Positions 8,281-11,235 of a DNA stretch of 64,000 bases are shown here, one piece after another. The translations under genes were made by a program, and so were the position numbers. The stretch is from contig JANQON010000016.1 in NCBI GenBank assembly GCA_028289605.1, positions 186,001 through 250,000 of the forward strand, written 5' to 3'. The stretch comes from Hyphococcus sp. Lineage in GTDB: Bacteria; Pseudomonadota; Alphaproteobacteria; Caulobacterales; Parvularculaceae. Below the pieces are notes generated by a model, which was not told the origin of the DNA, did not search any database, and saw only the letters and a program-made list of their open reading frames with translations. How positions within the stretch are numbered: position 1 is the stretch's first letter; each line of letters opens with the position of its first letter.

Positions 8281-9090
8281 TTGCGGCGAAGACCGAGGAA
8301 TTGGACGGAAGACTTGGCGAGACGTTTTGAACACAACGCCCATGAGGTGAGCTGGACGCTGCGCAGCTTGATGGCTGCGGGTCTCTTGAGCATTTGCGTG
8401 GTCGCCACCGCCATGAGCGTCTCCGTCAACGCCGATCGCGCTGAAGCGGTTCGGGAGACCGAACGCGCCGTCGCCCGCGAGGCCGCTCTTGTCGCCGATC
8501 TCGCCAACTATCTTGCGTCCGAGACCGCGGCGACGCGCAACGCCTTGACCGAGCCGCGCGTAAAGCCGGCGAAGCCGACATCGGCGTTGTTCCTTCTCGA
8601 TGACGACCCGGCGCAGAAGCTCGCCAATTTTGACTTTTCCACGCTCGCTGAAGCGCGCGTAGACGCGGCCGAGCGCACCTGCCTTGCGCAGGCAATCTAT
8701 TACGAAGCGCGATCAGAGCCGCGTATCGGTCAGGTCGCGGTTGCCGATGTGGTGCTCAATCGGGTGGCGAGCCGGCTCTATCCCGATACGATTTGCGATG
8801 TCGTCTTTCAGGGCTCCGAGCGTCGTACGGGGTGCCAGTTTTCGTTCACCTGCGACGGGTCGATGGATATCCGCCTGAACAAGCGCAAATGGGTCGCGTC
8901 TGAAGACCTTGCCGGCGCCATTCTGGCGGGCCTGCGCGCCCCGGTCAGCCGAAACGCCACGCACTATCACGCCGATTACGTCAGTCCATACTGGGCCCCC
9001 AAAATGAGCCCGACCGCGACCATCGGCACCCACAAGTTTTACCGTTTTCCAAGCCGGCGCATTAAGGAAGCCGCCCCCGCTGCGATGTAG
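8281..9090 (+). CDS. SleB-type cell wall hydrolase, membrane-anchored
   Basis: The protein (269 residues from the outermost start) has a short basic N-terminus, one hydrophobic segment (MAAGLLSICVVATAMSVSV) that should be a membrane anchor or uncleaved signal, a linker, and a C-terminal hydrolase_2/SleB domain. That domain contains CLAQAIYYEARSEP, VADVVLNRV and TGCQFSFTCDG, and in this family cleaves peptidoglycan. The glutamate in YYEARSE is the expected catalytic residue. The start is unsure: TTG at 8281 and TTG at 8314 are both possible and neither has a strong ribosome site; ATG at 8371 would begin at the hydrophobic segment. It is convergent with the tail-sheath gene, with only 24 bases between them. 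Confidence 0.85.
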   Translation: MRRRPRNWTEDLARRFEHNAHEVSWTLRSLMAAGLLSICVVATAMSVSVNADRAEAVRETERAVAREAALVADLANYLASETAATRNALTEPRVKPAKPTSALFLLDDDPAQKLANFDFSTLAEARVDAAERTCLAQAIYYEARSEPRIGQVAVADVVLNRVASRLYPDTICDVVFQGSERRTGCQFSFTCDGSMDIRLNKRKWVASEDLAGAILAGLRAPVSRNATHYHADYVSPYWAPKMSPTATIGTHKFYRFPSRRIKEAAPAAM

Positions 9091-9114: not shown

Positions 9115-10323
9115 CTATGCGGCCAGGGCCTTCAACGTCATTTTTATGATGACAAATTCCGCCGGCCTCAGCGGCGCAAAGCCGATCTGCAAATTCACAA
9201 CGCCGTTGTCGATGTCGGTTTGAGTCATCGTCGTTGAGCCGCATTGGACAAAGAACGCTTGGTTTGTCGATGCTCCAGGCAGGGCGCCGTCGCGAAAGAG
9301 CGTGTTCATAAAGGCTTCGACGCCGGACCGAATGCGCAGCCACAGCAGTTCTTCATTTCGCTCAAAAGCGGTCCACGTCATGGCCTTGTCAACGCTCTTT
9401 TCAATCATGTTGGAGAGCCGGCGCACGGCCACGTAACGCCATTCCGGATCCTGCGATAACGTGCGCGATCCCCAGATTACCGGTCCTGCTGACGGAAAAG
9501 TCCGAATAAGGTTGACGCTCTCGGCCGTAAGGAAGTCCTGTTCGGCATTGGTAACCGCATGCTCCGGCGCTGCGCCCAAGATGTTCGCAGAGAATCCCGC
9601 CGGCGCTTTCCAAACGCCGCCGGCCGCATCAGTGCGGGCGATCACGCCGGCGACCGCGCCGCTCGCCGCAATTGAGGGTGCAGATGATCCGGACACGGAG
9701 AGGCGCGGCGCAAACATCGCCGCGTCCCGATCGAAGAGTCCGACTGCATATCGCCAGTCGGCGACCAATGATTGCGCGTCGAAAGCGGCCTCGGTCTTGG
9801 GCGCGTCGATCAATAGCATTGCATGCTTGCGTTTGGCGGCGACGAGCGCAGCCGCGTAGGCGCGTCCCGCTGCAGATGGCGGGATGCGCGCGGCGATGGG
9901 CGCCGCGACGAGCCCGATGCCGGCGTCGCCCCGGCGGTCGATAAGATCGGCCAGGTTCGCCGATCCGTTCTCAAGATCAGCCGCTTTCACGTCGACTGTC
10001 GCCGCGCGCCGGCCGCCATTGACGAAGAAAAGCCTGATCTGTTCGCGCGCTTCCGGATCGACGGCGACGCCGGCGTGCAGCGCTGCGAACTCGCCGTAGG
10101 ACGTGAATGTTTTTTCCGACGTCATGCCGAAATCGTCGACGAAGAGCGCTCCGGAAAGTGAAACCCTTTTGATGACGCTCGGCGCAGGCGTCAGCTCCTC
10201 GACATAAACGCCGGGATAGGTGACTTGCTGCGAATGCGCCCGTGCGCCGGCGAATAGCGAAACCGCCATTGCGCCGGAACCGCTGAGAAACGCGCGGCGC
10301 CTGATGTCGCTCTGAGAACCCAT
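9115..10323 (-). CDS. Phage-tail-sheath-like protein with Tat signal peptide
   Basis: This 402-residue protein resembles sheath subunits of contractile phage tails and related injection systems. The N-terminal YPGVYVEEL, the middle LFFVNGGRRA and the C-terminal run with VIWGSRTLS, DPEWRYVAVRRL, AFFVQCGSTTMTQTDIDNG and RPAEFVIIKM follow the family along its length. Unlike ordinary sheath proteins, it starts with a twin-arginine signal: RRRAFLSG at residues 8-15, a hydrophobic stretch, and a possible cleavage site at ARA-H (27-30). It is therefore predicted to fold in the cytoplasm and be exported. The ATG at 10323 follows AGGGGAAG. No tube, baseplate, spike or AAA+ gene is in the window. It lies 63 bases downstream of nadC on the same strand. 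The family is clear from sequence; the role is unknown. Confidence 0.88.
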   Translation of the reverse strand: MGSQSDIRRRAFLSGSGAMAVSLFAGARAHSQQVTYPGVYVEELTPAPSVIKRVSLSGALFVDDFGMTSEKTFTSYGEFAALHAGVAVDPEAREQIRLFFVNGGRRAATVDVKAADLENGSANLADLIDRRGDAGIGLVAAPIAARIPPSAAGRAYAAALVAAKRKHAMLLIDAPKTEAAFDAQSLVADWRYAVGLFDRDAAMFAPRLSVSGSSAPSIAASGAVAGVIARTDAAGGVWKAPAGFSANILGAAPEHAVTNAEQDFLTAESVNLIRTFPSAGPVIWGSRTLSQDPEWRYVAVRRLSNMIEKSVDKAMTWTAFERNEELLWLRIRSGVEAFMNTLFRDGALPGASTNQAFFVQCGSTTMTQTDIDNGVVNLQIGFAPLRPAEFVIIKMTLKALAA

Positions 10324-10386
10324 GAGCGTCTTCCCCTTACCGGCAGAAGGTCGGTGGAATGGGAGAGGCTGTCAACAGGCGCTTGG

Positions 10387-11235
10387 TTAATGGACGTCCA
10401 AACCGAGATCGAGGGTCGGCGCAGAATGGGTGATCCAGCCGGACGAGATAATGTCGACGCCTGTCTCTGCGACGGCGCGGACGGTGTTCGCCGTGATGTT
10501 GCCTGACGCCTCGAGAACGGCGCGCCCCCGGTTGGCGGCGACGGCCTGTTTCATATCCTCGGCGGTCATATTGTCGAGCATAACGATATCGGCGCCGCCC
10601 GACAGCGCTTCTTCCAACTGATCGAGGCGATCGATTTCGACCTCGATTTTTACGGCGTGTCCGACCGACTGGCGCGCGGCGGAGAGAGCCTGGGCTATGC
10701 CGCCGGCGGCGGCGATATGGTTGTCCTTGATCATCACGGCGTCAAAGAGCCCAAAGCGGTGGTTGTGTCCGCCGCCGCAACGAACGGCGTACTTCTCGAA
10801 CGCCCTCAGGCCCGGTGTCGTCTTGCGCGTGCATACGATCTTCGCGCCCGTTCCCTTCACGGCTTCGACCAGCGCCGCCGTTGCGGTGGCGACGCCGGAC
10901 AAATGGCCGAGAAAATTCAGCGCGACCCTTTCCGCAGTCAGAATACCTCCGGCCGCGCCGTCGATCTTCATGACGACATCGTTTCTGGCGACCGCCGCGC
11001 CGTCGCCGCTCCGAACACTGACCTTGATGAAGGGGTCGACACGCCGAAAAGCCGCAATGGCGAGATCAACACCGCATATCACGCCTGCGGCGCGTGCGGC
11101 GATGGATGCGCTCATCTGAGCGTCGGCGGGAATGGTCGCGAGCGTCGTGATGTCGCCGGCAAGGCCTAAGTCCTCCGCCAGCGCATCCGCGACGGCTTTG
11201 TCAACCAAATGAGAAGGCAAAGCCGGCTCTGTCAT
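10387..11235 (-). CDS. nadC: Nicotinate-nucleotide pyrophosphorylase (quinolinate phosphoribosyltransferase)
   Basis: This 282-residue enzyme converts quinolinate and PRPP to nicotinate mononucleotide, the third step of de novo NAD synthesis. Family motifs are present: EDLGLAGDIT near the N-terminus, ERVALNFLGHLSG, TRKTTPGLRAFEKYAV with GGGHNHR, KDNH, and the C-terminal EASGNI and DIISSGWITHS. The length is normal. The start ATG overlaps the nadB stop by four bases (ATGA), so the two are translationally coupled. It is the last recognised NAD gene of the nadA-nadB-nadC run. Confidence 0.97.
   Translation of the reverse strand: MTEPALPSHLVDKAVADALAEDLGLAGDITTLATIPADAQMSASIAARAAGVICGVDLAIAAFRRVDPFIKVSVRSGDGAAVARNDVVMKIDGAAGGILTAERVALNFLGHLSGVATATAALVEAVKGTGAKIVCTRKTTPGLRAFEKYAVRCGGGHNHRFGLFDAVMIKDNHIAAAGGIAQALSAARQSVGHAVKIEVEIDRLDQLEEALSGGADIVMLDNMTAEDMKQAVAANRGRAVLEASGNITANTVRAVAETGVDIISSGWITHSAPTLDLGLDVH

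Follow-up and report, generated by a model that had tools for sequence, protein, structure and literature searches.

The window analyzed here, a stretch of 64,000 nucleotides from Hyphococcus sp. (contig JANQON010000016.1, positions 186,001 to 250,000), encodes on its minus strand, at 9115..10323, a contractile-tail sheath protein of 402 amino acids that begins with a predicted twin-arginine translocation (Tat) signal. We propose, with a probability of roughly 0.6, that this protein is a sheath subunit like those of extracellular contractile injection systems (eCIS), domesticated for work outside the cytoplasm. As judged from the sequences, export of the protein is very likely; that it then has a polymeric structural role we put at about even odds.

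The product of the open reading frame (ORF) matched the Pfam domains Phage_sheath_1C (49.9 bits; cut-off 26.9) and Phage_sheath_1 (32.8 bits; cut-off 31.4), that is, both contractile-sheath domains (PF04984 and PF17482) scored above their curated cut-offs. The original prediction, made from the letters of the DNA, had described a tail-sheath match from end to end, and all the motifs that it quoted are in the translation. The NCBIfam search of the protein assigned no family. The predicted model shows a confident sheath fold, arm and C-terminal strands included. Codons 30-402 (9118..10236, minus strand) would thus give a mature minimal sheath made of arm, core and C-terminal strands. Of 22 matches to solved sheaths, 9 had a best stretch that reached the N-terminus; in these, the alignment with a profile of seven exported sheaths set in at profile position 36-42, opposite chain residue 3-6. 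Hence, the signal is an extra piece placed before a whole sheath.

The N-terminus reads MGSQSDIRRRAFLSGSGAMAVSLFAGARA, followed after the presumed cleavage site by HSQQVTYPGVYVEE. Codons 1-29 (10237..10323, minus strand) form the putative Tat-type signal, with the twin-arginine motif RRAFLS at codons 9-14 (10282..10299, minus strand), an uncharged core and a presumed cleavage after A-R-A, a site placed by eye. The arm (YPGVYVEE) is preceded by MGSQSDIRRRAFLSGSGAMAVSLFAGARA and a linker of 7 residues. A Shine-Dalgarno-like AAGGGGAAG, also recognized by eye, lies a few bases upstream of the annotated ATG (10330..10338, minus strand). An internal start codon was ruled out: between RR and the arm there is just one more start codon, ATG19, and it is within the signal core. 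The RR start, hydrophobic stretch and ARA site of the original prediction were therefore recovered at a sound start codon, and an RR motif, an uncharged core and an A-x-A-like site at such a start are what the sequence of a Tat substrate should have.

To learn how widely the signal occurs, we used 398 genomes of the same order as the window's genome (G000). A sheath match was detected in 31 of them: 10 with a Tat-type signal, 19 without, a fragment (G700), and a scrap of 36 profile positions (G754). The G700 fragment (L136:2714-3079), near a contig end, has a start that by eye is Sec-like rather than Tat-like. The exported sheaths are short (395-419 residues) in G000, G022, G025, G041, G059, G188 and G592, and long (529-563 residues) in G045, G728 and G693; these ten genomes span six genera and three families, and those of G041 and G188 are complete in one contig each. 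RRxxL is present in all ten, and R9, R10 and L13 are invariant across seven aligned exported sheaths; on the conservation among homologues that the original prediction had left to be asked, the ten signal-bearing sheaths, the window's included, thus speak with one voice. A Tat-like rule of our own, applied in place of a trained predictor, matched 10/10 signal-bearing sheaths, 1/102 other sheaths and 3/54 ORFs of the window, the sheath ORF included. The single match among the 102 is an artefact, read from an internal leucine. These 102 sheaths were left from 176 BLAST hits once length and near-copy filters had been applied and the ten taken out; 20 of them lack the PG landmark, and each of the 19 signal-less genomes of the order is represented by at least one sheath, further sheaths of some genomes having been left out. 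With RRxxL in every signal-bearing sheath and the rule rarely matched elsewhere, the predicted twin-arginine signal is not a chance likeness. Between G022 and G025, the ratio of nonsynonymous to synonymous substitution rates (dN/dS) over codons 1-27 was 0.088, with 24/27 residues kept.

Outside the order, no signal-bearing sheath was found by these tests in a class sample (sheath match in 31/385 genomes, own included) or in a phylum sample (41/374 genomes). The two samples share genomes with one another and with the order set; loci were built for no more than 30 matches per search, and the rest were judged by where the match starts on the profile. The class-sample match that reaches furthest toward the signal, in G427, begins without one. 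G895, which starts RRAF, was rejected as an exported sheath because the hydrophobic core is absent. Among viral contigs (80 kept of 144 relatives), a Tat-like N-terminus was found in 0/61 readable cases. Plasmid and phage records with a match numbered 123 and 624; among the 40 and 20 matches listed, respectively, the annotations, which give names and not N-termini, were sheath or phage-tail names or none. A search of open-access full texts, with few subscription papers and no preprints, returned no description of an exported or Tat-borne sheath.

We then asked whether the rest of a contractile machine is encoded in the same genome, which has a completeness of 100 in 19 contigs and carries a single sheath gene, on contig C10. 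A profile search found no Baseplate_J in this genome, and found it in 3/14 control genomes. gp25 was found in 0/10 exported-sheath genomes versus 11/13 genomes of the order with signal-less sheaths, the 13 having been chosen by us from the 19 (G114, G148, G636, G672, G676 and G729 were left out). Baseplate genes of eCIS are thus missing for the two families searched, other baseplate families and the AAA+ protein lying outside the search; nor is there a tube gene beside the sheath gene, the only one being on contig C1. With no baseplate gene of these two families, the sheath is unlikely to serve an injection machine. The original prediction saw a sheath without partners. This holds for the neighborhood and for a tube and baseplate set elsewhere, in that neither baseplate family occurs in the genome; it fails for the genome as a whole, where C1 encodes one gp19-family tube protein with an export signal. 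Neither of the two outcomes that it had named as refuting appeared. Its idea of a domesticated, exported sheath gains from RRxxL kept in ten of ten signal-bearing sheaths and from the lack of Baseplate_J and gp25, but it missed the exported tube, which is present here and in two of the nine further exported-sheath genomes.

This sole gp19-family (PF06841) gene (G000:C1:79109-79528) codes for a protein of 219 residues (L002:1297-1956, also L044:9406-10065) that matched the family with 105.8 bits, and it is not beside any sheath gene. The protein begins with MAARQIGLACAATFVATMATAQ, by eye a Sec-type signal, behind GGAGGGAG. It passes the gp19 domain cut-off, and its core was modelled with the fold of an eCIS tube (overall pLDDT 70.5; TMt 0.73 to an AlgoCIS tube). 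A tube match was detected in 16/398 genomes of the order, and full-length signal-bearing tubes in 3/398: the window's genome, G059 (a tandem pair, Sec-type) and G045 (Tat-type, MKDQTRRGFVQSG...). No signal-like stretch is present in the remaining tubes, except that G012 encodes an exported protein with only part of the gp19 domain. All three exported-tube genomes are among the ten exported-sheath genomes (probability 1.15e-5, calculated after the fact, ignoring kinship and leaving G012 out). Cysteines at both 177 and 204 were found in 3/4 exported tubes versus 1/160 other tubes; from a strand reading of the model, C177 and C204 would lie on opposite strands of the last hairpin, one across from the other. 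Both the co-occurrence and the cysteine pair were noticed before they were counted. The window genome's tube and one G059 tube cluster together (SH-aLRT 93) among the tubes of G292, G401, G276, G134 and G170. The sheaths of those systems lie fairly close to the short exported sheaths, in keeping with a common source. The remaining two exported tubes have diverged too far for placement. The same-genus genomes G012, G019, G006 and G026 (L065-L068, L157, L189) also encode proteins that carry a signal, a long linker and a partial gp19 domain, and G016 has a weak match to the same part. In G045 (L140:9683-10826), the tube gene is followed by one for a signal-less 142-residue protein with a weak gp19 likeness (20.5 bits, under the cut-off), which might travel through Tat with the tube as its partner.

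The origin of the exported sheaths was analyzed with a quick tree. Of 112 distinct sheaths it included 70, distant phage-type and near-duplicate rows having been dropped. The three long exported sheaths fell within a clade of eCIS-type sheaths, many of which begin PGVYxxExxxFPNSVV, apart from the short ones. A single clade of all ten was rejected (p-AU 5.5e-5), while one clade of the seven short sheaths (p 0.634) and one of the three long sheaths (p 0.35) were compatible with the data. The simplest reading of these sequences is at least two gains of export; one gain followed by several losses may also account for them. Short signal-less sheaths amid non-phage genes were also seen in G114, G174 and G142 (L050:8441-9553, L051:6588-7739, L052:6162-7355) and in G237, G460 and G364 (L075-L077), the last three lacking the PGVY arm as read.

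A mechanism can be proposed from these observations. The sheath protein would fold in the cytoplasm, as its confident model suggests; the twin-arginine signal, for which the sequence evidence is strong, would send the folded monomer through Tat and be removed after A-R-A; and the mature protein, once in the periplasm or farther out, may self-assemble into a polymer shaped as a tube or a patch. In the three genomes where both occur, the window's included, the exported gp19-type tube may line or nucleate this polymer. Self-assembly without a baseplate is naturally expected, since the T4 sheath protein gp18 alone forms polysheaths (PMC9230969) and the arms are kept here. The presumed cleavage site is separated from the arm by 20, 25 and 28 residues in G022, G025 and G693; in the window's protein the distance is 7, and the remaining exported sheaths fall within the same range of 5-14. 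The long stretches in those three genomes, together with an AlgoCIS sheath that extra N-terminal residues turned non-contractile (PMC13314943), suggest that contraction is not needed. A bolder reading, with odds below even, is a two-part extracytoplasmic nanotube. Bacteria of one alphaproteobacterial order would have taken the sheath of a contractile injection system more than once, some lineages taking the tube as well, added export signals and dropped the baseplate; the product would be a cell-envelope structure, either a polymer of sheath alone or a tube within its sheath, located in the periplasm or at the surface.

The sheath gene lies 63 bp downstream of nadC (QRPTase; 10387..11235, minus strand) and may be co-transcribed as the last gene of the nad cluster. 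It follows nadC directly in the window, G022 and G025 (gaps of 63, 67 and 45 bp); in G188 and G592 it is at another locus, common to both, and its neighbors vary between genera. The Pfam-matched neighbors are nadA, nadB, nadC, ppdK, a cell-wall hydrolase, a regulator and other non-phage genes, and 2/10 neighbors had no match. A promoter scan of the sequence found none, and terminator-like sites numbered 4 versus 2.3 expected by chance. Tail to tail with the sheath gene is a Cell Wall Hydrolase gene (PF07486, Hydrolase_2; 8281..9090, plus strand), and the tube gene likewise converges on a gene for a cell-wall enzyme (SLT; L044:10062-11789), possibly by chance. A DUF2490 gene is downstream of the sheath gene in G022 and G025 (L045:11339-12073, L046:10628-11383), with none at that place in the window; in G022 a metallo-beta-lactamase-fold gene is in between.

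Several observations weigh against domestication of an exported sheath. The sheath tree is quick and has long branches. No tube was found in the other 7/10 exported-sheath genomes, even at E <= 10. Under a strict form of the homologue test, the 19 genomes with signal-less sheaths count against it, although these sheaths are of other types or belong to ordinary systems. When the variable linker is counted in, the 46 codons ahead of the arm had a dN/dS of 0.40 between G022 and G025. The window's sheath and that of G022 share 44% identity, versus 73% for nadC and 78% for nadB, with a dN/dS of 0.45 (dS 1.16), so the sheath is a fast-evolving protein; and the gene is dispensable, since it is absent from most of the same-genus genomes listed. 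In favor of domestication we count the dN/dS of 0.22 for the whole gene in G022 versus G025 and the shared locus after nadC. The missing tubes, the fast divergence and the differing neighbors would also suit an exported protein that is not polymeric, namely a scaffold, decoy or binding partner in the periplasm, either soluble or attached to the wall, in which the sheath fold marks only ancestry. We consider this unlikely, though of the alternatives it fares best: the protein retains the arm, the core and the C-terminal strands that make a sheath complete, the T4 sheath protein polymerises by itself (PMC9230969), and exported tubes accompany the sheath in three genomes.

An exported machine with unrecognised parts, in which sheath and tube would join a diverged baseplate beyond the cytoplasm and remain able to contract, is quite improbable. 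Baseplate_J (0/1) and gp25 (0/10) were missing; sheath and tube genes are on different contigs in the window's genome; and ATP-driven assembly is not expected outside the cytoplasm. We give still less credence to a decaying relic of a prophage or injection system with an accidental likeness to a signal. The gene does stand alone among housekeeping genes and has a patchy distribution, but its frame is intact, the locus is the same in three genomes and the signal is kept in ten, and the constraint between G022 and G025 led us to reject this reading. An ordinary cytoplasmic sheath with a misannotated start, serving a complete system elsewhere in the genome, has nothing in its favor and can practically be dismissed: as far as the searches reach it is refuted by the lack of a usable internal start, of a second sheath and of both baseplate families, and by a sole tube that itself bears a signal.

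The solved chains of eCIS sheaths (Afp2, Pvc2, and those of the Streptomyces and Algoriphagus systems) have no export signal, and their clusters include tube and baseplate genes; the window's sheath has a predicted Tat signal, no baseplate gene of the two families searched and a tube on another contig. The sheaths known to us form in the cytoplasm, where they enclose a tube that stands on a baseplate. The R-type pyocin sheath differs in being freed by lysis as part of a full particle. Crescentin is cytoplasmic and related to another tail part. Its grouping is with the tape-measure proteins of phages, although its place among these has low support, and in Caulobacterales it offers the precedent of a phage-tail relative that became a cell-structure protein (PMC12700997). 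The gp18 polysheath is a by-product in the cytoplasm or test tube, whereas the window's sheath is a predicted exported cellular protein. The exported tube of the window's genome shares family and modelled fold with other gp19-family tubes; the exported tubes differ in their Sec- or Tat-type signal, in not lying beside a sheath gene and in the cysteine pair of three of the four.

Export is well supported by the comparison of sequences; what goes beyond the presence of an export signal, we infer. These results suggest that a sheath was moved outside the cytoplasm for a new, probably structural job. If so, a sheath that crosses the inner membrane folded would make the contractile-tail fold an extracytoplasmic building block, its conserved export signal would have been gained more than once or else retained while other lineages lost it repeatedly, and sheath and tube would be separable from the injection machine. 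The finding bears on how phage parts turn into cell parts.
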